This document shows, one piece after another, positions 20,285-41,781 of a DNA stretch of 45,170 nucleotides. Position 1 is the stretch's first letter. The number at the start of each line of letters is the position of its first letter. A program made the position numbers and the translations under genes. The notes beneath the pieces are model-generated. The model searched no databases and was not told the origin of the DNA. It was given only the letters and a program-made list of their open reading frames with translations. This DNA is from Pseudofrankia coriaricola (lineage in GTDB: Bacteria > Actinomycetota > Actinomycetes > Frankiales > Frankiaceae): NCBI RefSeq assembly GCF_001854805.1, contig NZ_MBLO01000247.1:1-45170 (forward strand), given 5' to 3'.

Positions 20285-20337
20285 GTGCCCGCGCCCCACT
20301 CGGCGGCTTTGGTCGAAAGCAGTACGCCGATGTCCAT
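20285..20337 (-). pseudogene. LLM oxidoreductase, N-terminal remnant
   Basis: From the ATG at 20337 the frame reads MDIGVLLSTKAAEWGAG. The intact LLM gene at 26035-27003 starts MDIGVLLPTGAAQWGAD. Homology then stops and the sequence runs into the desulfurase-like gene. The 60-base leader upstream is also shared with the intact gene. It is a 5' stub of a duplicated LLM gene. Confidence 0.8.
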
Positions 20338-20368
20338 GGCGACGGTGCTCACGGCCGGTGCGGACAGC

Positions 20369-20389
20369 GACAATTCCCGGCGAGGAATG
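20369..20389. promoter_or_regulatory. Operator-like motif, copy 1
   Basis: CGACAATTCC-N6-GGAATGG: inverted ATTCC/GGAAT half-sites (20373-20377 and 20384-20388) with 6 bases between. It lies 33 bases before the XRE gene and 35 bases before the LLM stub, divergent to each other. The same motif occurs at 21672-21690 and 27035-27055. It is a probable binding site, possibly of the adjacent XRE regulator. Confidence 0.65.
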
Positions 20390-20421
20390 GCCCAGGACGC
20401 CACGGCCGGTAGAACAGGCCT

Positions 20422-21201
20422 GTGGACTTCCCTCACGCGCTACGTGAACGCCGTACCGGCCGTCGTCTCAGCCAGCTCGATCTGGCGCTGCGGGCGGGTA
20501 CCACCCAGCGGCACCTCAGCTTCATCGAGTCCGGTAGGTCCGTCCCCGGCCGGAGCATGGTCGTGCGTCTGGCCGAGTCACTCGAACTGCCGCTGCGGGA
20601 GCGCAACGAGCTGTTGTTGGCCGCCGGGTTTGCGCCCGTCTACCCGGAGAGCTCGCTTGACGAACCGGTGCTGGCCCCGGTGCGCACGGCGATCGATCAC
20701 ATCGTCCGTGGGCACTTGCCATATCCGGCGGTGGTCGTGGACCGCGACGGCGACCTGATCGCCGCGAACGACGCATTCGATCTGATCACCGAGGGCGCGG
20801 CGCCCGAGCTTGTAGGCCCGGGCAGAAACGTCTACCGCCTCGCGCTGCATCCAGAGGGCGTCGCGCCCCGTATCCGCAACCTCGCCGAATGGGCGCGCCA
20901 CATCCTGGCGCGCCTTGGCCACATGGCGGAGTTGCGCTCCGAACTCATGAGATACGTCCCTGAGCTGGCGCCGTCCGACGGGCAGCTCGGCTTCGCGGTC
21001 CCGCTTCACCTGGGGTCATCCCGCGGTGAGCTGCGCCTGATGACGACGGTGACGACCTTCGCCACCGCCGTCGACGTAACGCTCGCCGAGCTGAAGCTGG
21101 AGGCGTTCCTGCCGGTCGACCCGGCGACGGCCGAAGCTCTCTCGGCGGCCGCCGAGGCGGTGCCTCCCTCGCCTGGAGGTCAGGCTCCCGGGAACATGTA
21201 G
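20422..21201 (+). CDS. XRE regulator with MmyB-like ligand domain
   Basis: 259 aa from a GTG at 20422 (VDFPHALRERRTGRRLSQLDLA). HTH_31-type helix-turn-helix lies at about 5-65 with TTQRHLSFIESGRSVPGR. The MmyB-like PAS-related ligand-binding domain (about 85-245) contains VVVDRDGDLIAANDAF and the late LRLMTTVTTFATAVDVTLAELKLEAFLP. Members control small-molecule or fatty-acid-responsive genes; the ligand here is unknown. The operator-like motif begins 33 bases upstream and recurs near two other genes, which suggests autoregulation plus a small local regulon. The 3' end overlaps the SnoaL-like gene by 22 bases, convergently. Confidence 0.9.
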   Translation: MDFPHALRERRTGRRLSQLDLALRAGTTQRHLSFIESGRSVPGRSMVVRLAESLELPLRERNELLLAAGFAPVYPESSLDEPVLAPVRTAIDHIVRGHLPYPAVVVDRDGDLIAANDAFDLITEGAAPELVGPGRNVYRLALHPEGVAPRIRNLAEWARHILARLGHMAELRSELMRYVPELAPSDGQLGFAVPLHLGSSRGELRLMTTVTTFATAVDVTLAELKLEAFLPVDPATAEALSAAAEAVPPSPGGQAPGNM

Positions 21202-21602
21202 TCGGTCTTGATCCGGCCGTCGTCGTCGAGCACGACGATCTCCAGGCCCCCGCCCACCACGTCGCCGGTGTCGACGGACACGGTCTCCCAGCCGAACTTG
21301 ACGACGTCCCGGAGGCGCACCGCATCGGCGCACGACCGGAACGTGAGCCCCGCCTTCTCGACGAACTGTTCGTAGCTGCGTGCCACGCGGATCTCGATGG
21401 CGGCGTGCCCCTGGGCGTCGAGGGCCTGGTGCTCGAAGCTGAGTCCTGCCGCGGCCTCGCGGATCTCCATCGGCGGCTGGAGGATGTGGACGCCGTCCTC
21501 GGCCCACAGGCGCGCGATGGCCGCACGGCGCTGCGCCGCGTCCGGCTCCGTCCACTGGGCCACGTAGCGGTCGGCCAGATCCCGCGGGTCAACCTCAATC
21601 AT
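21180..21602 (-). CDS. SnoaL-like / NTF2-fold protein
   Basis: 140 aa from the ATG at 21602 with AAAGGAG spaced 6 bases. The cone-shaped alpha+beta barrel pattern fits the SnoaL/NTF2 superfamily: DLADRYVAQWTEPDAAQRRAAIARLWAEDG at the start is typical, followed by a central alpha-beta segment and late VVLDDDGRIKTDYMF. Members bind or isomerise small hydrophobic compounds; no activity can be assigned. It carries operator-like motif copy 2 in its leader, 71 bases upstream, so it is probably co-regulated with the XRE and LLM genes. It overlaps the convergent XRE gene. Confidence 0.82.
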   Translation of the reverse strand: MIEVDPRDLADRYVAQWTEPDAAQRRAAIARLWAEDGVHILQPPMEIREAAAGLSFEHQALDAQGHAAIEIRVARSYEQFVEKAGLTFRSCADAVRLRDVVKFGWETVSVDTGDVVGGGLEIVVLDDDGRIKTDYMFPGA

Positions 21603-21671
21603 GGAATCTCCTTTATCGGTATGTCGCCTGGACCTGTGGACCCAGATCCTGTGGGCGGCGATGGTGACCGA

Positions 21672-21690
21672 CAATTCCCGCCTGGGAATG
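21672..21690. promoter_or_regulatory. Operator-like motif, copy 2
   Basis: CGACAATTCCC-GCCT-GGGAATG, with 6-bp arms here, the most symmetric of three copies. Read on the minus strand it ends GGAATTGTCG; TTGTCG could be a -35 box with CAGGAT as -10 after 17 bases, driving the SnoaL-like gene. Confidence 0.65.
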
Positions 21691-22016
21691 ACCTCGTCCG
21701 GTGCGCGAGATCGGCGGAAAGGCTTCCGTCCGCCATGGCCTCGCGGGCGCGACCACGGTGATGACTCGGCGCGACCGTCGTCGCCGGCCTGCTGCCGCGG
21801 CGACACCGCCGACAGCCGCAACCCTACGATCATGGGCTTTCTGCGGTCGAGGCGGCGCCACTAGAGTTCTTGGCCGTGGAGACTGGCGTCGAAGACACGA
21901 TTTTCGGGTCGCGCGTTCTGGCCCGGCCTGATCCGTGCATCCCGGCGAGCAGTCTCGCTATCCCGAGGTCCGGCCGAGATCGCGTGGATGACACATGACT
22001 GGCGGTCGATTCGGCG
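21691..22016. other. Spacer, nothing recognised
   Basis: Between operator-like copy 2 and the TetR stop I see no gene, repeat or clear hairpin. The ORFs present are Arg-rich shadow frames. Confidence 0.5.
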
Positions 22017-22817
22017 TCAACCGGTGCCGTCGGCGCTGAGCTGCCTGCCCGGCGAACCTGGCTCGGCGCGTTCGATGAGGGAGGCCAGGCCGTCGAGGAC
22101 GCGGGCCAGGCCGAAGCGGTACGCGTGGTCGGGGTCGTGGGCGCTGCCATGCGCCTCACCGGCGGCGGTGCCGACCCGGCTGGCCAGCGGGTAGCGCCGT
22201 TCGTCGAGCACCTGGGCGAGCAGCGGGCCGACGCGCGCCCACCACTGCGCGTCATCGCCGGCGGTCGCCACGGCGGCTGCCTGGTGCGCCTCCCTGGCAT
22301 TGGCCTGCACGAAGGACAGCAGGTAGGTCAGGCAGTCGTCCATCTCCACATCGGAAAGGCCGAGCCCGTCGAGTGCTGACAGCTCGTGCTCGTACTTCGC
22401 CATGAGGCCTGGTCCGAGTGGCGGGCGGAGGGTCGAGATCTCGGCGGCCCAGGGATGCGCCGAGAAGAGTGCTCGGTTCTCGTCGGCGACGGCGGTCAAC
22501 CGCGTGCGCCAGCGCGCGCCCGTGGTGTCCGCGCGCGGCGTCCGGATGTAGACCGCGTCCAGCATCAGGTCAAGCATCTCGGCCTTGCCCGGCACATAGG
22601 TGTAGAGGGTCATCGGCACGACGCCGAGTGCCCGGGAGACCGCCCGCATGGTCACCGCGGCCAGCCCTTCGCGGTCGGCCAGCCCGATGGCGGTGTCGAC
22701 CACGGCACTCAGCTCCAGCCCCCTGGCCGGTCCACGGCGGGATGGTGCGAGCGGCTTCCCCCACAGCAGCGCCAGCGTGCGTGCCGGGTCACCAGATCCC
22801 GAGCGTTCATCCGTCAC
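22017..22817 (-). CDS. TetR family regulator with TetR_C-type domain
   Basis: 266 aa from the GTG at 22817 (VTDERSGSG); a GTG at 22835 is also possible but would start 7 bases from the operator. The HTH (about 40-85) reads LADREGLAAVTMRAVSRALGV then VPMTLYTYVPGKAEML, the order seen in TetR proteins with an extended N-terminus. The C-terminal domain is of the tetracycline-repressor class C type. It diverges from a VOC gene across a perfect 29-bp palindrome, so it very likely represses both. Confidence 0.9.
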   Translation of the reverse strand: MTDERSGSGDPARTLALLWGKPLAPSRRGPARGLELSAVVDTAIGLADREGLAAVTMRAVSRALGVVPMTLYTYVPGKAEMLDLMLDAVYIRTPRADTTGARWRTRLTAVADENRALFSAHPWAAEISTLRPPLGPGLMAKYEHELSALDGLGLSDVEMDDCLTYLLSFVQANAREAHQAAAVATAGDDAQWWARVGPLLAQVLDERRYPLASRVGTAAGEAHGSAHDPDHAYRFGLARVLDGLASLIERAEPGSPGRQLSADGTG

Positions 22818-22841
22818 CTGGCCATCTTCGTACACAAAACA

Positions 22842-22870
22842 CTGTACGATGTATGTTGTACATCGTACAG
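22842..22870. promoter_or_regulatory. Perfect TetR-type operator palindrome
   Basis: Left arm CTGTACGATGTA (22842-22853), spacer TGTTG, right arm TACATCGTACAG (22859-22870). All 12 positions are complementary. It lies between divergent TetR and VOC starts, 25 bases from each, and must overlap their promoters. Its AT-richness stands out against the local GC content. Confidence 0.85.
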
Positions 22871-22895
22871 AGTTGTCGATCCTGAAGGGCCAACC

Positions 22896-23303
22896 ATGAA
22901 GATCATTTCATCCGCCGTCTCACTGAACGTCGACGATGTCGAGGCGTCGGCGGGCTTCCTGACCCGGCACTTCGGCTTCGCCGAGCAGCTGGCCGCGGAG
23001 GGATTCGCTTCCCTCGTCCGCGACGACGCCGGTATGAACGTCGTCTTCCTGCGCCGTGGCCTGCCAACGCTTCCCGCCGACCAGCGCGACGACCGTGCGG
23101 GCGGGCTCATCATCGCCTTCGTCGTCGACGACCTGGAAGGTGAGCTCGCCCGGCTGCGTGGCGAGGGTGTGATGATCACTATGCCGCTGACCGAGGAGGA
23201 GTGGGGGGAGCGGGCTTTTCAGGTTCGCGACCCCAACGGCATCATCGTGCAGCTTGTCGACTGGAAGGGATCGGGCGCCCAGGCGGCGGTGGTCGAGGCG
23301 TAG
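22896..23303 (+). CDS. VOC family protein (glyoxalase/bleomycin resistance type)
   Basis: 135 aa from the ATG at 22896 with GAAGGG spaced 6 bases. Two VOC half-domains are seen: VSLNVDDVEASAGFLTRHFGF at the start and a second half ending FQVRDPNGIIVQLVDW, which supplies the terminal metal-ligand Glu/Gln strand. Proteins of this kind bind or modify toxic small molecules. Here the local TetR and operator point to an inducible detoxification or sequestration role. Substrate unknown. The C-terminus has a short unrelated tail. Confidence 0.88.
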   Translation: MKIISSAVSLNVDDVEASAGFLTRHFGFAEQLAAEGFASLVRDDAGMNVVFLRRGLPTLPADQRDDRAGGLIIAFVVDDLEGELARLRGEGVMITMPLTEEEWGERAFQVRDPNGIIVQLVDWKGSGAQAAVVEA

Positions 23304-23356
23304 CGAGCCGCGAGTCCGGTCTTCGGCTGATCGGACGATCGGACTCGGGGACACGG

Positions 23357-24202
23357 TCAGCGGGGTAGGGAAGCGTGCCGTTCCAGGAAAGCGGCGACGT
23401 CACTCTCCGACTCGATCGGCAGCGGATACACAAGGAGACGGTCGACCCCGAGTTCGGCGTACCGGCGGGCCGCGGCAGCGGTGACCTCGATCGGATCGAG
23501 CTGCATATAGATGATTTCCAGACGGCCGAGCCGGGCCGGTCGCTCGATCTCGACCGCTGCCGCGGCCAGTCCAGACAGGTGGGTGGCGAGGTCGGCGGCG
23601 GTGCCGTTGCCAAACCATCCGTGCCCACGGGCGACCGCGCGTCGGTAGGCGGCCGGGCTGTGACCGCCGATCACGACTCGCGGGCCGCCCGGGCGCACGG
23701 GCCGAGGATGCGCGTCGATGTCTGCGAACGAGACGTACTGCCCGCTGTAGACGGGCTGGGGATCGAGCCAGAGCGACGCCATCGCGTCCAGGTACTCGTC
23801 CGTGCGGCGGCCGCGCCCGGCCATCGGCACCCCGATGGCGGACATCTCCGGCTCCAGGTAGCCGGCGCCGACGCCGAGCAGCGTTCGCCCTTCGCTCAGC
23901 ACGTCCAGGCTCGCCACCTGCTTGGCCAGAACCAGCGGGTTGCGCTGGGGAAGGATGATGATCCCGGTGCCCAGCTCGAGCCGCCGGGTGGCCGCGGCCA
24001 CGTAGGTCAGGTGGATCAGGGGGTCGAGGATCGGGTCCGTCGCCTCCATCGGCGAGGCCGGCACCCGAGGGCTGGGCAGGACGACGTGTTCACCGGCCCA
24101 CCAGGAGCGATACCCCAGCTCCTCGGCCAGCCGTGCCAGGCGGACGGTCGCCTCCGGGCCGGCCGTCGCCTTCGCGTTAAGACCACTGACACCGAGTTCC
24201 AC
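23357..24202 (-). CDS. LLM class (F420-dependent type) oxidoreductase
   Basis: 281 aa from the GTG at 24202, 8 bases after AGGGA; a GTG at 24208 is too close to it. It has the bacterial-luciferase TIM-barrel pattern: RLARLAEELGYRSWWAGEHV near 20-40, TRRLELGTGIIILPQRNPLVLAKQ near 85-105, and VASLDVLSEGRTLLGVGAGY. The late PRVVIGGHSPAAYRRAVARGHGWFG fits the F420-dependent (Rv2161c/TIGR03619-like) subgroup. It should transfer hydride between F420 or FMN and an unknown substrate. Its start lies within the tail of a truncated dehydrogenase gene. Confidence 0.9.
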   Translation of the reverse strand: MELGVSGLNAKATAGPEATVRLARLAEELGYRSWWAGEHVVLPSPRVPASPMEATDPILDPLIHLTYVAAATRRLELGTGIIILPQRNPLVLAKQVASLDVLSEGRTLLGVGAGYLEPEMSAIGVPMAGRGRRTDEYLDAMASLWLDPQPVYSGQYVSFADIDAHPRPVRPGGPRVVIGGHSPAAYRRAVARGHGWFGNGTAADLATHLSGLAAAAVEIERPARLGRLEIIYMQLDPIEVTAAAARRYAELGVDRLLVYPLPIESESDVAAFLERHASLPR

Positions 24203-24611
24203 GCTCACGCTCCCTAGAACCTCTGCTCGTAGAACCTCTGCTCGGACGTCGCCTCGCCGCCCGTTCCGCCGGAACGTCGAGGACGGCCTTGCCCGCGACG
24301 CGGCGGGACAGCAGTGCCTCGGCGACCTCGGGCGCCCGCTCCCAGGGGCCCCGCCAGCCGATCTGTGGGTCCAGCTCGCCCCGGTCGAGCAGCCGGACGA
24401 GGTAGCCGATGACCTCGGCCAGTCCGGAGCCGATGACGAACGGCTCGATCCGCCGGTCGCCGGACCGATGCCGTTCCGCCTCGAAGTCGATGGTGGTCGG
24501 CTGGCCGGACGCCTTACCGATGGACAGCGCGACCCCGCCCGGTTCGAGCAGCGAGAAGGCCTCGGCCAGCTGCTGTCCGCCCACGTTGTCGAGAACGCCC
24601 CGCCAGACCAC
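24177..24611 (-). pseudogene. Quinone-reductase-type zinc-binding dehydrogenase, C-terminal remnant
   Basis: About 110 residues from VVWRGVLDNVGGQQLAEAFSLL through GGVALSIGKASGQPTTIDF to VAGKAVLDV match the C-terminal third of MDR-superfamily quinone oxidoreductases. The catalytic domain and the GxGxxG cofactor motif are missing, and the reading frame upstream towards 24650 is unrelated. The last 30 residues are an Arg-rich extension encoded partly by a 15-bp duplication and overlap the LLM start. It is divergent from the LysR gene, so it was probably that regulator's target. Confidence 0.75.
24215..24244. repeat. Exact 15-bp tandem duplication
   Basis: TAGAACCTCTGCTCG occurs twice in direct succession (24215-24229, 24230-24244). 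It lies just upstream of the LLM Shine-Dalgarno and inside the tail of the dehydrogenase remnant. It looks like a recent slippage event. Confidence 0.85.
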
Positions 24612-24650
24612 CGTGCCTGGCTTCTCCGCGTTGGTCCAAGACCCGTTGTT

Positions 24651-24665
24651 ATAACCAATGGTTAT
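24651..24665. promoter_or_regulatory. LysR-type T-N11-A box on the LysR start
   Basis: ATAACCA-A-TGGTTAT is a perfect 7-bp dyad with the LysR pattern T-N11-A. It overlaps the start codons of the LysR gene (24658/24664) and precedes the divergent dehydrogenase remnant. Autorepression is the natural reading. Confidence 0.75.
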
Positions 24666-25602
24666 GGACGTGCGCGTGCGGGACCTCCGTTACTTCTTGG
24701 CGGTCGCCGAGGAACAGAGCTTCACTCGGGCGGCGAGCCAGCGGCTGTACATCTCGCAGCCGGCGTTGAGCAAGCAGATCCGCCAGCTGGAGCAGTCGTT
24801 GGGGACCGTCCTGTTCGATCGGGACCGGCGGACGGTCCGGCTGACTCCGGCCGGAGAGGCCCTGCTGCTGTATGCCCGGCGGCTCACTGAGGACTGGGAG
24901 GCGGCGCGGCTCGCGGTGTCGGAGGCGTCAGCCCTGGCCGGGACGACGGTGCGGGTCGGATTTCAGATGCGGATCGGTCGCGGGCTCATCCCAGCCGTCA
25001 CGGCGCGGATGCGACAGCGGCTTCCCGGCTGGAAGCTGATGTTCCGCCAGGTCTCGTGGGCCGATCCCACAGTTGGCCTGGCCCATGGCGAGGTGGACGT
25101 CGCGATCGCCTGGCTGCCGGTGCCCGACACCGGCGCGCTTTCCTGGCGGGTCGTGGCGCGCGAGGACATCTGGGTCGCACTTGCGCCACGACACCGCCTC
25201 GCCGGACTGCCGACGGTGCCCTTCGCCGATCTGGTCGACGAGCCCTTCATCGCGCTGCCGAGGACGGCCGGCGCCCAGCGGGACTTCTGGCTCGGGGCGG
25301 CGGCCCGGCAGTCCCCGGCCGTCATTACCGGGGAGGCCGAGACCGCCGAGGAGTCGTTCGAAGCGGTCGCCTCCGGACTGGGGATCACCTTGCTCTCCGC
25401 CGGCAACGCCGAGATCTACCACCGCGACGACGTCGTCTGCCGGCCGGTCAACGGGCTGCCGCCCAGCGAGCTGGCCGTCGTCTGGCGCACGGTCGACACC
25501 CGACCGTTCGTCGACGTCTTCGCCGACACCTGCCGCGCCTGCGCCCGTCCCGCGGCCGTGGCCGGTCAGGTGGGCGAGCCGGAACCCTGCGCAGGACCGT
25601 GA
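24664..25602 (+). CDS. LysR family transcriptional regulator
   Basis: 312 aa from the ATG at 24664 (MDVRVRDLRYFLAVAEEQ); an ATG at 24658 is in frame. The winged HTH at 1-62 has FTRAASQRLYISQPALSKQ. The effector-binding domain occupies about 90-290 with DVAIAWLPVPDTGALSW and the late ASGLGITLLSAGNAEIY. No Shine-Dalgarno is visible because the operator occupies that place, so leaderless translation is possible. Its divergent partner is truncated, so its present target may be only itself or genes elsewhere. Confidence 0.92.
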   Translation: MDVRVRDLRYFLAVAEEQSFTRAASQRLYISQPALSKQIRQLEQSLGTVLFDRDRRTVRLTPAGEALLLYARRLTEDWEAARLAVSEASALAGTTVRVGFQMRIGRGLIPAVTARMRQRLPGWKLMFRQVSWADPTVGLAHGEVDVAIAWLPVPDTGALSWRVVAREDIWVALAPRHRLAGLPTVPFADLVDEPFIALPRTAGAQRDFWLGAAARQSPAVITGEAETAEESFEAVASGLGITLLSAGNAEIYHRDDVVCRPVNGLPPSELAVVWRTVDTRPFVDVFADTCRACARPAAVAGQVGEPEPCAGP

Positions 25603-25647
25603 CACCGATGGTGAGGTTCCCCGCGCACTCCGTCCTGGGCTGCGGCC

Positions 25648-26016
25648 CTAGGAGAGAGGGCCAGGTCGTGGGGACGGAGCCGGCGAGGTGTCCCGGCTCG
25701 AGGAGGCGATGAGGTCGACCGCCAGGGCACAGATCCACACGGCGACGGTGAGAGCGAGCACCCGCTCGAAGAGACCCTCCTGGGAACCAGGCGCGTACGG
25801 GCCCTGGGACGCCGTGAGGATCAGTGGCACCGAGCCGAGGATTCGAACGATGAGCATCACCGGTCGGAGGTGCCGCCATCGTGGAATTTCCCGCGTACGT
25901 CGCCAGAGGGGGAACGGCGTGACTGCCAGTACGGCGATGAGCAGGCCGGAGGCGATGGTGTCGGTGAGTCCTCCGGCGCTGTACAGATGTTGGTGAACAG
26001 GGCAGGCGCTGCCAGC
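25648..26016 (-). pseudogene. DUF998-like membrane protein, C-terminal remnant
   Basis: Without a start codon, the frame downstream of the LLM stop reads HQHLYSAGGLTDTIASGLLI, then AVLAVTPFPLWRRTRE, RILGSVPLILTASQG and GLFERVLALTVAVWICALAVDLI, ending at 25648. Three hydrophobic segments and the GLFERVLAL end resemble DUF998-type integral membrane proteins. The N-terminal half is missing. The family match is moderate; an unrelated small membrane protein translated from an internal GTG at 25860 (70 aa) is the alternative. Confidence 0.5.
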
Positions 26017-26034
26017 GAGGCGGCAGGGGAGCGG

Positions 26035-27003
26035 CTATCTACCTGTGGGCGCGTGCTCCGCTGCCGCCCGGCAGGCGGGGATCAGCGCGCCGATCCGCTC
26101 CAGCTGGTCACGCTGGGAGCGCAGGTCCAGGGCACCCAGGCGGGTGACGATGTGGCGCGCGCCGCCGGCAACGTACCTGGCCAGGCCCTCGAGCACCTGG
26201 TCAGCGGAGCCGGTGACCACCGCCTGGATCTTTTCCAACTCCGCCAGCGGCATCCCGTAGGTGGCCCGCGCGTAGTCGTCCAGGGTCCGGCGGCCGCTCT
26301 CGACGTCCTCGTCGATCCGTACCGAGACGAACAGCGCGGGTGTGATGTCCTCGGCGGCACGGCCGGCGTCGGCCGCCGCCGCGCGGACATCCCGCAGCCC
26401 GGACGCGTAGTCGGCCGGGTCCGGCGGATAGGGCAGCCACCCGTCGTACATCTGGCCGGCGCGGGCTAGCGCGGCCGGGGTCGCGCCGCCGAGCCAGATC
26501 GGCGGGCCGCCTGCCTGGAACGGCCTGGTCGCGGGCGGGAGGTCGTCGAACCTGAGGATTTCGCCGTGGAAGGAGTTGGCGCCGTTCCACAGCGCCCGCC
26601 ACAACGCGACCGTCTCGTCCAGCCGGGCGAAGCGCCGTCCCCACGGCACCTCGGACAGGGTGTAGAACGGTCGCCCGAAACGGCCGGGGAAGCCCGCCCC
26701 CACGGCCACCGTGAGCCGCCCGCTGGACAGCAGGTCGATCGACGCCAGGGACTGTGCGGCCTGGATCGGCCTGCGAAGGAACGGCAGCAGCGCGCCTGTT
26801 CCCAGGGTCACGGTCTCGGTCGCCGGGGCGAGCGCGGCCAGCATCGTCAGCGCCTCGATGCGCGGGCTGATCAGGGAGTCGTTGACGAAGAGCGAGGAGA
26901 ATCCCAGGCGTTCGGCCTGGCGGCCGAAGGCGACGAGTTCTCGAGGGTCGCCGTCCGCGCCCCACTGGGCGGCCCCGGTCGGAAGCAGCACACCGATGTC
27001 CAT
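26035..27003 (-). CDS. LLM class oxidoreductase
   Basis: 322 aa from the ATG at 27003 (MDIGVLLPTGAAQWGA). It has the luciferase-like TIM barrel: LVAFGRQAERLGFSSLFVNDS at 25-45, then TVTLGTGALLPFLRRPIQAAQ and SIDLLSSGRLTVAVGAGFPG. It probably uses F420 or flavin. No Shine-Dalgarno is seen. The leader is nearly identical to that of the LLM stub at 20285-20337, including operator-like motif copy 3 at 35 bases upstream. Expression is therefore probably tied to the XRE gene at 20422. Confidence 0.9.
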   Translation of the reverse strand: MDIGVLLPTGAAQWGADGDPRELVAFGRQAERLGFSSLFVNDSLISPRIEALTMLAALAPATETVTLGTGALLPFLRRPIQAAQSLASIDLLSSGRLTVAVGAGFPGRFGRPFYTLSEVPWGRRFARLDETVALWRALWNGANSFHGEILRFDDLPPATRPFQAGGPPIWLGGATPAALARAGQMYDGWLPYPPDPADYASGLRDVRAAAADAGRAAEDITPALFVSVRIDEDVESGRRTLDDYARATYGMPLAELEKIQAVVTGSADQVLEGLARYVAGGARHIVTRLGALDLRSQRDQLERIGALIPACRAAAEHAPTGR

Positions 27004-27034
27004 GCGGCTGATGCTCACGACCGGCGCGGACAGC

Positions 27035-27055
27035 GACAATTCCTGCCAGGGAATG
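27035..27055. promoter_or_regulatory. Operator-like motif, copy 3
   Basis: CGACAATTCC-N6-GGAATGG (half-sites 27039-27043 and 27050-27054), 35 bases before the LLM start. The same distance separates copy 1 from the LLM stub. On the minus strand the motif ends in TTGTCG, a possible -35 box. Confidence 0.65.
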
Positions 27056-27172
27056 GTCGGGCACCGCCGCCGGCGTGGGCCACTGTTTTTCGCGCTGGTG
27101 GCCGCCGCGGGGTCAATCGGGGGGTGCACCACCCGAACCAGACCTGTCGGACCCATCAGGCATGGTGGCGGT

Positions 27173-28060
27173 ATGCCCACCTCCGCCCACGAGACGCCGC
27201 TCGAGCTGCTCCGGCTCGACCCGTCCCTGCCCGACTGGGTGCAGAACGAACTGCTTGGCGACGACGCCCCCGCCTTCGACCATGCGCGGCTGTTCGACCC
27301 GAACGTCCGCCCGCGGACCTATCAGGCGGACGCGATGGTGCTGTACTGCGGACCGGACGACATGCCGCTGCGCGCCGCCGTCTATGAGGTCCAACGCGGC
27401 CGGGACCCGGACAAGCTTGGAACCTGGAAGCTGTATGTCGGTCATATGGAGACCGAGTTCCGCGTCAAGGCCTCCCTGGTGGTCTTCGTCCCCGACAGGG
27501 CGGTGGCTGACTGGTACCGCGACCAAGTCGCCCGGGACACCCGCAGCGGAGCGTGGTTGCGGCCGTGGTTCTTCACCGCCGAGGACGTCCCGCCCATCGT
27601 CGACGAGGAACTGGGAGCGGCCCGACCGGCGCGGGTGCTGTTCTCCGCGATGTGCCACCTCGACGACCCCGCTGTCGAGAAGATGTACCCCGCACTGCTA
27701 GCCGCGCTGGTGACGTTGGAACCAAGGGCGAAGATCTTTTACCATAACGTGACCGTGGGCAGTCTGCCCGAACCGGCCCGGGCCCGATGGGAGGCGTTTG
27801 TCATGACCACGGCTGTCGGCAAGCGGTACAACGACGAGATGCTCAACGAGGCCGACGCTCGCGGCGAGGCTCGCGGCGAGGCTCGCGGCGAGGCTCGCGG
27901 CGAGGCGAGGTCCGTGCTGCTGGTTCTGGAGAGCCGCGCCGTGCCGGTGCCCGACGCGATCCGCGAGCGGATCCTGGCCTGCGCCGACACGGACCAGCTG
28001 GACCTGTGGCTCCGTCGTGCGGTCACGGCGACCACCGTTGAGGACGTCATCCGGGGCTAA
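27173..28060 (+). CDS. Rpn/PD-(D/E)XK-like protein
   Basis: 295 aa from the ATG at 27173 (MPTSAHETPLELLRLDP); the ORF is open upstream but that part is unrelated. Residues about 45-100 show the nuclease-like core: TYQADAMVLYCG supplies the Asp and AAVYEVQRGRDPDK the E-x-Q of the PD-(D/E)xK variant seen in Rpn/YhgA-like and related actinobacterial proteins. A flexible ARGE repeat (residues about 229-244) precedes a helical C-terminus, as in other members with RE-rich repeats. Function in this lineage is not established. A hairpin follows the stop. Confidence 0.75.
   Translation: MPTSAHETPLELLRLDPSLPDWVQNELLGDDAPAFDHARLFDPNVRPRTYQADAMVLYCGPDDMPLRAAVYEVQRGRDPDKLGTWKLYVGHMETEFRVKASLVVFVPDRAVADWYRDQVARDTRSGAWLRPWFFTAEDVPPIVDEELGAARPARVLFSAMCHLDDPAVEKMYPALLAALVTLEPRAKIFYHNVTVGSLPEPARARWEAFVMTTAVGKRYNDEMLNEADARGEARGEARGEARGEARSVLLVLESRAVPVPDAIRERILACADTDQLDLWLRRAVTATTVEDVIRG
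27857..27904. repeat. 12-bp coding tandem repeat, 4 copies
   Basis: GCTCGCGGCGAG repeats exactly four times and encodes ARGE x4. Copy number can change without breaking the frame, giving a length-variable linker. Confidence 0.9.
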
Positions 28061-40046: not shown

Positions 40047-40916
40047 TCAGGCCGTGGGCGACGTCCCCGGCGCCGTCGACCACTGCGTCCCGAGGACCTT
40101 GAGCAGCTGGAGCGCCCGGTGGGTGGGCGTCCCGGGGGCGGCCGTGTACAGGATGATCCAGTGGTCGCGCTCGGGGTCGTGCAGCGCGTCGCAGTCGAGG
40201 TCGAGCCAGCCGACCTCGGGATGCCGGATGCGTTTGTGGGTCGAGCGGCGCACCTGGAGGTCGCGCTCGGCCCACAGCCGGCGGAACTCCTCGCTGACGT
40301 CGAGCAGTCGCCGGACCAGGTCGCGGATGCCCGGATCGCGGGGATAGCGGGCCGTGGCGGCGCGCAGGTCCGCCACCGACTCGCGGGCGAACCGCTCCAC
40401 GCTGGTCGGGTCGTGCCGTTCCCGAGCGCCGGCCCGGGTGAAGAAACGCCAGATGACGTTGCGTTCGGCCGGTGGGAGGGCCGAGAGGTCGCCGAGCAGC
40501 GCCGCGCCCATCGGGTTCCACGCCAGGATGTCGTACTTGGCGTCGCAGACCAGGGCGGGCGCGTCGTCGAAGCGGTCCAGCAGGTGCAGGACCCCTGGAC
40601 TGACGTCGGACGACAGGACGGACGCGGTGGGCGGCTGCTCGCCGGACAGATGGTGCAGGTAGGCGCGTTCGGCGTCGGAGAGCCGCAGCGCCCGGCTGAT
40701 GGCGCCGAGGATCTGACCGGACGGGCGTGGCCCGCGGCCCTGTTCGAGGCGGACGTAGTAGTCGACCGACATGCCGGCCAGCTGGGCGACCTCCTGGCGG
40801 CGCAGCCCCGGCGTACGGCGGCGCGGCCCGGCCGGCAGGCCCACGTCCGCCGGCTGTACCCGGGCGCGCCGCCCGCGCAGGAAGGCCGCCATCTCGTCGC
40901 GGCCGGCCTGGTCCAT
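40047..40916 (-). CDS. XRE regulator with MmyB-like ligand domain
   Basis: 289 aa from the ATG at 40916 (MDQAGRDEMAAFLRGRRARVQP). The HTH region reads LPAGPRRRTPGLRRQEVAQLAGMSVDYYVRLEQGRGPRP in the fixed family order. The MmyB-like domain (about 105-280) includes ALVCDAKYDILAWNPMGAALLGD and a C-terminal WIILYTAAPGTPTHRALQLL. Regulators of this type are usually divergent from an SDR or similar enzyme that they repress. Here the divergent gene is the SDR at 41020. Ligand unknown; no clean operator was found in the 100-base gap. Confidence 0.92.
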   Translation of the reverse strand: MDQAGRDEMAAFLRGRRARVQPADVGLPAGPRRRTPGLRRQEVAQLAGMSVDYYVRLEQGRGPRPSGQILGAISRALRLSDAERAYLHHLSGEQPPTASVLSSDVSPGVLHLLDRFDDAPALVCDAKYDILAWNPMGAALLGDLSALPPAERNVIWRFFTRAGARERHDPTSVERFARESVADLRAATARYPRDPGIRDLVRRLLDVSEEFRRLWAERDLQVRRSTHKRIRHPEVGWLDLDCDALHDPERDHWIILYTAAPGTPTHRALQLLKVLGTQWSTAPGTSPTA

Positions 40917-41019
40917 GACACGAGGGTGTACCCGCGCGGGTCCGCGAACCATGGGACCGCCGATACCAGCCTCGGGACTGCTCTCCTCATGGCCGGTCCC
41001 CGACGTGACGGTGAAACTC

Positions 41020-41781
41020 ATGACCTCCCACGAACCCGCTTCCCAGGCCTCCCTTCGCAAGATCGTGCTCGTCACCGGCGCGAACAAGGGAATCGGTCTC
41101 GCCACGGCGGCGGCCGTCGCCAGGCAGGGCCACACCGTGCTGCTCGGCGCGCGCAGCCCCGAACTGGGCGAGGCGGCGGCCGCGGCGCTCGCCCAGCAGG
41201 GACTGGACGCCGCGTTTCTCCACCTGGACGTCACGGACGAGGCGACGATCGCGCACGCGGCCGCGGTCATCGACGCCCGGCACGGCCGGCTGGACATCCT
41301 CGTCAACAACGCCGGCATCACCCGCGACCAGGGGCGCACGCCCTCCACGCTGCCGGTCGCCGCGCTGCGCGAGGTCTACGAGACCAACGTCTTCGGCGTC
41401 GTGGCCGTCACGAACGCCCTGATCGGTCTGCTGCGCCGGTCACCCGGCGCGGTCATCGGCAACGTCTCCAGCGGCCTGGGCACCTTCGCCTTCCTGGCCG
41501 ATCCCGATCCGACGCTGGGAAGATACGCGCAGCTGCTCGGCTACAACTCGTCCAAGGCGGCGCTGAACGCCATCACGCTGATCTACGCGCACGAGCTCCG
41601 CCCGTTCGGCATCACCGTCAACGCGCTCTCCCCGGGCTACTGCGCTACCGACCTCAACGGCCACACCGGTTGGGACAGCGCCGAGGAGGGCGGCGCCCGC
41701 ATCGCGGCCCAGGTGCTCGCCAGGCACGACGAGGGCTCGGGAGTGTTCCTGAACGAGAACGGCGGTACCTACCCCTGGTGA
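41020..41781 (+). CDS. SDR family oxidoreductase
   Basis: 253 aa from the ATG at 41020; a GTG at 41011 is in frame. Cofactor motif TGANKGIG lies at about 19-26, the NNAG motif in LVNNAGITRD, Ser in NVSSGLG, and the catalytic Y175 and K179 in GYNSSKAALN. The ANKGIG and SSKAALN forms match carbonyl-reductase-like SDRs. It is probably an NADPH ketone/quinone reductase. Its 3' end and stop lie within a 16-bp duplication. It is divergent from the XRE regulator. Confidence 0.93.
   Translation: MTSHEPASQASLRKIVLVTGANKGIGLATAAAVARQGHTVLLGARSPELGEAAAAALAQQGLDAAFLHLDVTDEATIAHAAAVIDARHGRLDILVNNAGITRDQGRTPSTLPVAALREVYETNVFGVVAVTNALIGLLRRSPGAVIGNVSSGLGTFAFLADPDPTLGRYAQLLGYNSSKAALNAITLIYAHELRPFGITVNALSPGYCATDLNGHTGWDSAEEGGARIAAQVLARHDEGSGVFLNENGGTYPW

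Follow-up and report, generated by a model that had tools for sequence, protein, structure and literature searches.

A candidate palindromic operator and small regulon of an MmyB-like XRE regulator in Pseudofrankia coriaricola and other actinomycetes

Positions 1 to 45,170 of contig NZ_MBLO01000247.1 from Pseudofrankia coriaricola (assembly GCF_001854805.1), the whole of which is referred to here as the window, encode an XRE regulator with an MmyB-like ligand-binding domain, a SnoaL-like protein, an LLM-class (luciferase-like) oxidoreductase, and the stub of a second LLM gene. Copies of one palindromic site are located upstream of these genes. The regulator, the site as its operator, and the genes behind the site very probably form a regulon, whatever the sign of the regulation. 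The protein family is known; what we propose as new is an operator and a regulon for one clade of MmyB-like regulators.

A preliminary description of the window reported three copies of the motif GACAATTCC-N6-GGAATG, each upstream of a start codon. All three are present and exact, at 20369-20389, 21670-21690, and 27035-27055 on the forward strand (from 20368, 21669, and 27034 if the leading C is counted in); copy 2 had been placed at 21672 and is corrected here. Copy 1 lies between the starts of the XRE gene (20422, forward strand) and the LLM stub (20337, reverse strand), copy 2 lies upstream of the SnoaL-like start (21602, reverse strand), and copy 3 lies upstream of the intact LLM start (27003, reverse strand), so the placement before start codons is borne out. 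The exact motif occurs at three places in the 11.2-Mb host genome (280 contigs), all inside the window, which answers the earlier question of whether its frequency is random genome-wide. The half-sites ATTCC-N6-GGAAT, with up to one mismatch, were matched three times in the window, where 0.27 matches were expected. With up to two mismatches, the host genome contains seven matches (one being copy 3 read on the opposite strand), compared to two for a reversed control pattern. It is scarcely credible that the three copies are a trivial product of duplication or chance: copies 1 and 3 are indeed duplicates, but copy 2 is independent of them and is conserved with its gene in other genera, and three matches were reached in none of 100 shuffles.

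The duplicated copies belong to a 121-bp block at 20289-20409, which aligns with 26955-27073 at a local alignment score of 139, where the best of 200 shuffles scored 41. In local alignment, copy 2 resembles the other copies only across 35 bp around the motif. One end of the block covers the first LLM codons, and the other stops just short of the regulator's −10 box. Judged by this alignment, copies 1 and 3 are the outcome of one duplication event, and the shared homology implies that an LLM gene start with its operator is present twice, the copy on the regulator side having decayed to approximately 16 codons. In the host, the LLM copy with an operator is thus found 6.7 kb away, and the LLM gene adjoining the regulator is the stub. 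Operator 1 is now effectively a putative autoregulatory site. The LLM remnant beside the regulator had been recognized before; to that account we add its length and the state of its −10 box, which lacks the final T that both intact enzyme promoters retain. The distance of 35 bases between two of the copies and an LLM start was also given correctly, for copies 1 and 3, but it was rejected as independent evidence because both copies lie within the one duplicated block.

The orthologous loci are the best 80 among 167 relatives, and the counts below therefore describe the closer ones; these loci come from Frankiaceae, Streptomyces, Kitasatospora, Asanoa, Actinoplanes, Kribbella, and others. A gene was scored as present at tblastn identity of at least 45% over at least 100 amino acids with the N-terminal end included. 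Per-column conservation peaks on both half-sites and is lower in the center of the palindrome and on either side of it, with a second increase at the −10 boxes and within coding sequence. The operator proper is predicted to be the symmetrical core ATTCCC-N4-GGGAAT. With up to one mismatch, this core is found no more than 260 bp upstream of the regulator gene in 79/80 loci, the exception being L112, and it starts at −49 to −52 relative to the regulator start codon in 68 of the 79; the full 21-mer, with up to three mismatches, is found in 78/80. The usual layout consists of an LLM gene and the XRE gene diverging from a shared operator. The divergent LLM gene is present in 64 loci, all of which have this site, as do 15 of the remaining 16. 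A minority of the loci (33/80) also contain a SnoaL-like gene in convergent orientation, with a separate operator: a second site precedes that gene in 32 of the 33 (not in L073) and is found in 0/47 of the others.

The 21-mer of the preliminary description was rejected as the motif unit. Its left arm, CGACAA, is the TTGTCG −35 box of the predicted enzyme promoters read on the opposite strand, and the palindrome and that box share one base in the conserved flank on the enzyme side, GGGAATTGTCG, the final base of the former being the first T of the latter. The dinucleotide CA beside the core, part of the LLM −35 box, is kept in 64/64 loci with LLM versus 8/15 without it (Fisher P = 2e-6, uncorrected for relatedness), and its loss where LLM is gone is expected if CA belongs to the promoter and not to the operator. 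Within the window, where 0.36 matches to the pattern TTGTCG-N18-A-N3-T were expected, the pattern is matched at the SnoaL-like promoter, at the LLM promoter, and at a place unrelated to them (24586-24614). The SnoaL-like promoter, with a CAGGAT-like −10 box, has a 17-bp spacer in 28 of 32 loci and an 18-bp spacer in 2, and is unrecognized in 2; for the LLM promoter, with a GANCAT-like −10 box, the spacer is 17 bp in 34 of the 62 LLM-bearing loci, 18 bp in 5, and of another length in 2, and the promoter is unrecognized in 21. For the regulator itself, 63 of the 77 loci tested have a TANAA[CGT] box that ends 6 to 7 nucleotides (nt) ahead of the start codon (62 of the 63 with a 16- to 18-bp spacer), so the regulator mRNA is probably leaderless. 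The features of the window are collected in Table 1.

Table 1. Coordinates of the regulator, the target genes, and the candidate regulatory sites in the window
Feature	Position	Strand	Basis
LLM stub, 5′ remnant of an LLM gene (approximately 16 codons)	20289..20337	-	Homologous to the LLM 5′ end, 26955-27003
Decayed −10 box of the putative stub promoter, GAGCAC, final T gone	20345..20350	-	Unmatched by TTGTCG-N18-A-N3-T
Putative operator 1 core, ATTCCCGGCGAGGAAT, one mismatch	20373..20388		Exact motif; core kept upstream of regulator orthologues
Putative, weak −35 element of the XRE promoter, TGGCCC	20388..20393	+	TGGC conserved beside the core in the alignment
Putative −10 box of the XRE promoter, TAGAAC, 6 nt before the start codon	20410..20415	+	Sequence; TANAA[CGT] in relatives
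XRE regulator, helix-turn-helix and MmyB-like ligand-binding domains, 259 aa	20422..21201	+	Pfam, Foldseek
SnoaL-like (NTF2/ketosteroid-isomerase fold) protein, 140 aa	21180..21602	-	Profile and fold match to 3dxo
Putative SnoaL-like −10 box, CAGGAT	21646..21651	-	Pattern match; conserved column block
Putative SnoaL-like −35 box, TTGTCG, one base in common with the operator	21669..21674	-	Sequence; pattern match
Putative operator 2 core before the SnoaL-like gene, ATTCCCGCCTGGGAAT, no mismatch to the palindrome	21674..21689		Motif; kept in relatives
LLM-class (luciferase-like) oxidoreductase, 322 aa	26035..27003	-	PF00296, 178.8 bits
Second copy of the 121-bp duplicated block	26955..27073		Local alignment; first copy 20289-20409
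Putative LLM −10 box, GAGCAT; start codon about 1 nt past the predicted transcription start	27011..27016	-	Pattern match
Putative LLM −35 box, TTGTCG, one base in common with the operator	27034..27039	-	Sequence; pattern match
Putative operator 3 core before the intact LLM gene, ATTCCTGCCAGGGAAT, one mismatch	27039..27054		Motif; in the duplicated block

The occurrence of the motif follows that of the regulator. In a sample of 35 genomes of the taxonomic family, where orthologues were called at E ≤ 1e-100, the motif with up to one mismatch was present in 13/13 genomes with an orthologue and in 2/22 without (Fisher P = 7e-8). In a sample of 393 genomes of the class (E ≤ 1e-75, at most six candidates scored per genome, so that an orthologue may be missed), an exact, stricter pattern was present in 13/22 genomes with an orthologue and in 5/371 without (P = 5e-15); both P values ignore relatedness. 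The motif is therefore largely absent from genomes that lack the regulator, a check that had been called for when the site was first described. At the five exception sites, tblastn with the window proteins and an MDR (zinc-type alcohol dehydrogenase) found no relative of the regulon genes; two of these sites are upstream of rplN, and one (L221) coincides with the start of a different reading frame, whose product resembles a helix-turn-helix (HTH) protein. The site is also specific to the clade. Among the loci of 17 related regulators with 41 to 50% identity (L151-L167), 0/17 have the operator with up to two mismatches, and the 19 other PF17765 loci of the host genome yielded a single match with two mismatches, at one locus (L131). 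Within 150 bp upstream of the gene, 76/80 orthologues have a site with no more than one mismatch, and all 17 relatives differ by at least three.

These distributions support the XRE protein as the prime candidate binder, as had been suggested from its position next to copy 1: the site stands before 79 of its 80 orthologues, co-occurs with it, and is absent at the 17 sisters checked. The alternative that the motif is bound by a different regulator (for example, the product of the TetR gene at 22017 or of the LysR gene at 24658), with the XRE gene only as one of its targets, draws on two considerations that weigh against an XRE binder, namely, that the link between the XRE protein and the motif is one of co-occurrence and position and that the 80 loci were selected by their XRE gene, whose presence there is by construction. 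We consider it very improbable. Queries with the TetR and LysR proteins of the window matched one TetR-like protein (37%, L100) and one LysR-like protein (32%, L116) in the 80 loci, so neither travels with the motif; in the two genome samples, which were searched by motif alone, the motif follows the XRE gene; and the exact sites unlinked to the regulator locus include two loci with an MmyB-type paralogue (L199 and L206).

Unlinked sites were sought, with up to one mismatch, in the genomes of 25 of the 80 loci; counts were made by eye, and overlapping matches on the two strands were merged. In total, 53 distinct sites were found, 39 at the regulator locus and 14 elsewhere. Seven of the 14, including all five exact ones, are at genes for LLM, SnoaL-like, or MDR proteins. 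One site precedes an LLM gene (L204), three precede MDR genes (L199, L205, and L206), and three precede SnoaL-like genes (L200, by Pfam; L201, 45% identity; L207, 54% identity to the window protein). Across the site from the MDR gene, an MmyB-type paralogue is encoded at L206 (Pfam) and apparently at L199, where there is a reading frame for the ligand-binding part. The operator is accompanied by TTGCCG and CAGGAT with a 17-bp spacer at L199 and L200, and by TTGTCC or TTGCCG and GAGGAT or CAGGAT with an 18-bp spacer at L205 and L206; on the opposite side, a GTG closely follows TACAAC or TAGAAC at L199 and L206. That one promoter layout recurs in front of non-homologous genes argues strongly that it is functional.

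Several results weigh against the proposed regulon or its precise form. Of the three host copies, 1 and 3 each depart from the refined palindrome by one mismatch, leaving copy 2 as the sole exact match. The position of the core is not fixed everywhere, since it starts at −24 to −40 from the regulator start codon in 6/79 loci and at −58 to −230 in 5/79. There is no recognizable −10 box at 21 of the 62 LLM-bearing loci or at 14 of the 77 regulator promoters, and the −10 patterns, like the motif of the sister regulators described below, were defined after the alignments had been viewed. Nine of the 22 orthologue-bearing genomes of the class sample lack the strict exact pattern; six of these belong to the taxonomic family and carry the motif with up to one mismatch, and the remainder are G216, G266, and G297. 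In G386 and G154, the strict site is away from the regulator locus; that of G154 is at a SnoaL-like gene (44% identity), and no recognizable target was found at that of G386 (L215). Finally, the other 7 of the 14 unlinked sites, all with one mismatch, lack a regulon-type neighbor; three of them are upstream of rplN, PrsW, and DUF503 genes, and nothing related to the regulon was found at the one-mismatch unlinked sites L229-L232. As a separate observation, ATTCCC-N4-GGGAAT occurs approximately 110 bp upstream of rplN at L198 (in the genome of the Streptomyces prunicolor locus L043), L220, and L222, apparently unrelated to the regulon.

What was observed is that the sites exist, are conserved, co-occur with the regulator and the target genes, and have a mostly fixed geometry; from this we infer binding, dimerization, promoters, transcription starts, a ligand, and a sign of regulation. 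The MmyB/MltR-like XRE protein would bind ATTCCC-N4-GGGAAT as a dimer and control three promoters, its own and those of the SnoaL-like gene and the LLM oxidoreductase, and a ligand bound by its PAS-like domain would set its activity; for MmyB/MltR-like regulators, this ligand is expected to resemble a fatty acid and to induce the dimer. At all three putative promoters, the operator would end on the first base of the −35 box, its center lying at −41.5 from the predicted transcription start of the regulator and at −42.5 from those of the SnoaL-like and LLM genes. A center near −41.5 that overlaps the −35 box is the geometry of a class II activator, and it is found here on predicted promoters. 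Lambda cI at OR2/PRM is an HTH protein that binds at about −42 and activates its own leaderless mRNA; the likeness to the window system is one of geometry only, and activation is a prediction here.

Ligand-controlled class II activation is the sign that we favor, as a reasonably probable reading. It is favored because the operator is mostly held just upstream of the −35 box in several independent promoters and because PMC3406030, in the portions of its text available, describes the family as activators that respond to a signal. Repression would be just as conceivable for an operator in contact with the −35 box, which counts against activation. With the same regulator, operator, and targets, the dimer might instead act as a repressor that keeps sigma off the −35 box and is released by a substrate-like ligand, as in the classical scheme of an autoregulated divergent repressor. 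This is the main rival to activation and a serious possibility, though we think it the less probable. It would suit the one base that the operator has in common with each −35 box in the window, the enzyme −35 box TTGTCG, which in our own reading is fairly good alone, and the six loci in which the core lies nearer the regulator start codon than usual, as occlusion would allow; moreover, the XRE protein MsrR of Corynebacterium glutamicum represses itself and a divergent mfs gene, according to the part of PMC7532634 available. Among recognized promoters, however, the operator lies just upstream of a −35 box that is 16 to 18 bp from the −10 box in 62/63 cases for the regulator, 30/30 for the SnoaL-like gene, and 39/41 for LLM. 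This mostly fixed geometry recurs at unlinked promoters, which fits contact with sigma more than occlusion, and the view of family members as activators in PMC3406030 likewise speaks against repression.

The same promoter elements could be read without any operator, with the motif as the promoter of an alternative sigma factor and GGGAATTG as its −35 element. That element does sit at the −35 position, and the −10 box CAGGAT is conserved at a fixed spacing. Conservation of the upstream half-site ATTCC, however, roughly equals that of the downstream half-site, and does so also at the SnoaL-like promoter, which is one-way; the core stays at the regulator in 15 of the 16 loci without a recognized LLM gene, where the CA of the −35 box is lost in 7/15; and the presence of the motif follows the XRE regulator. 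An alternative sigma factor is therefore a very improbable explanation, and an operator of the XRE protein is the preferred one.

The label of the 20422 gene as an MmyB-like XRE regulator, given previously from the translation, is confirmed by Pfam. The C-terminal PAS-like domain PF17765 is matched at 72.5 bits (cut-off, 26.3) over residues 87 to 241, and the N-terminal HTH is matched by PF01381 (38.4 bits) and PF13560 (34.6 bits), both above their cut-offs. MltR (PDB 3pxp) is the top match by sequence profile and also ranks first in Foldseek for the AlphaFold model of the regulator (pLDDT, 86.9; pTM, 0.72) at an E value of 4.9e-12; the TM score of only 0.49 and the rmsd of 9.5 mean that this match leaves the domain arrangement unconfirmed. 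The regulator alignment comprised the window protein, 32 of the 80 orthologues picked for diversity, and the L206 paralogue.

The best NCBIfam model for the LLM protein is TIGR03619, yet the score is below its cut-off; the cofactor may be F420 or FMN. The protein is 83 to 91% identical to the regulator-adjacent LLM in the four near relatives examined, L038 (from Pseudofrankia asymbiotica, genome G035), L039, L042, and L083. The SnoaL-like protein has no significant match in Pfam. A profile of its family finds the SnoaL-like protein 3dxo (E = 3.6e-9), which is also the top Foldseek match of its AlphaFold model (pLDDT, 95; TM score, 0.74), and with these two matches, the label SnoaL-like stands. 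The XRE and SnoaL-like genes are convergent, and their 3′ ends overlap by 22 nt (21180-21201). Overlaps of similar length were seen in orthologous loci, e.g., L040 and L043.

The available portions of PMC3406030 place these findings within the family. MmyB-like genes are described there as usually sharing their upstream region with a divergent SDR, MDR, or antibiotic-related gene, and their products as acting by signal-activated dimeric DNA binding and activation; the genomes given as examples contain 5 to 36 such regulators, and Thermobifida fusca contains none. The host genome has 20 PF17765 matches. Like the window regulator, MltR (Caur_2278) has an XRE-type HTH followed by a PF17765 domain. 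Of the partner genes named there, MDR genes stand at some of the unlinked sites reported here; at the orthologous loci, the divergent partner is instead LLM (in 64 of the 80 by the tblastn criterion above), MDR genes being found only at paralogue loci and unlinked sites. A further difference is that a convergent SnoaL-like gene is also part of the proposed regulon, for which an operator sequence is put forward; the portions of PMC3406030 examined give none for MmyB-like regulators. MmyB of the methylenomycin cluster, the founding member, has been suggested to recognize pseudo-palindromic B-boxes, and an identity of approximately 20% between MmyB and MltR is quoted (PMC3406030, same portions); it is a positive regulator according to the accessible part of PMC10717218. 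The B-box sequence, for comparison with ATTCCC-N4-GGGAAT, was not found in the text seen of these two papers.

Two other XRE systems follow a similar logic, as far as the excerpts at hand describe them. MsrR is autoregulated and has a divergent target, as proposed here, and is set apart, by description and not by sequence, as a redox-sensing repressor with other targets (PMC7532634). PMC12565409 reports autoregulation and palindromes upstream of XRE genes; its main text, in the part available, contains no ATTCC, GGAAT, or TTCC string, and the motif may be in its supplementary cluster table. No literature on this operator or on an XRE-LLM-SnoaL regulon was found among the matches listed in a search of open-licence papers, in agreement with the preliminary description, which knew of no described regulator for the motif.

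Related regulators outside the clade may use a different site. The palindrome ATTACCT-N3-AGGTAAT, with up to three mismatches, is present upstream of 8 of the 17 regulators L151-L167 versus 0.09% of mononucleotide-shuffled upstream sequences, the motif having been defined from the same sequences in which it was counted. It seemingly occurs in two adjacent copies at L154, L155, and L166.

A broader scheme can be outlined, which we regard as speculative and, taken whole, rather unlikely. The operator, TTG(T/C)CG, and a CAGGAT-type −10 box at 17 to 18 bp would form a portable cassette of one MmyB-like clade, placed with the same geometry before non-homologous LLM, SnoaL-like, and alcohol dehydrogenase genes. 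From one operator, the leaderless mRNA of the regulator and, in the other direction, the mRNA of an enzyme would both be activated. Together, the enzymes would synthesize or degrade a hydrophobic signal or toxic metabolite, as yet undescribed, which would double as the ligand of the regulator. Sister clades would have moved to ATTACCT-N3-AGGTAAT through changes in the region of the recognition helix, operator and helix having coevolved.

An operator with a clear target set allows the construction of reporters and screens for ligands, and it allows one to ask which molecule the LLM, SnoaL-like, and alcohol dehydrogenase enzymes handle. The sister palindrome offers a first comparison for a recognition code within the family. 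Since the regulator, the site, and the target genes recur across many soil actinomycetes, they provide a handle on what a poorly understood family controls.

Other features of the window were noted in passing. The open reading frame list includes, at 24177-24611 (reverse strand), what seems to be the C-terminal half of an MDR, its 5′ end lost at the start of the LysR gene; MDR genes belong to the proposed regulon in other genomes. A 295-amino-acid protein encoded at 27173-28060 (forward strand), without a match in Pfam or NCBIfam, has four GEAR repeats arising from a 12-bp tandem repeat at approximately 27860-27905, and we presume that it resembles a PD-(D/E)XK/Rpn-type protein. A second MmyB-like regulator, with a different type of HTH, is encoded at approximately 40047-40920 (reverse strand; PF17765 at 40101-40604, 192.8 bits). 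Read by eye, it is apparently divergent from an SDR-like frame at approximately 41020-41781 (forward strand), an MmyB-SDR pair of the kind described in the available portions of PMC3406030.

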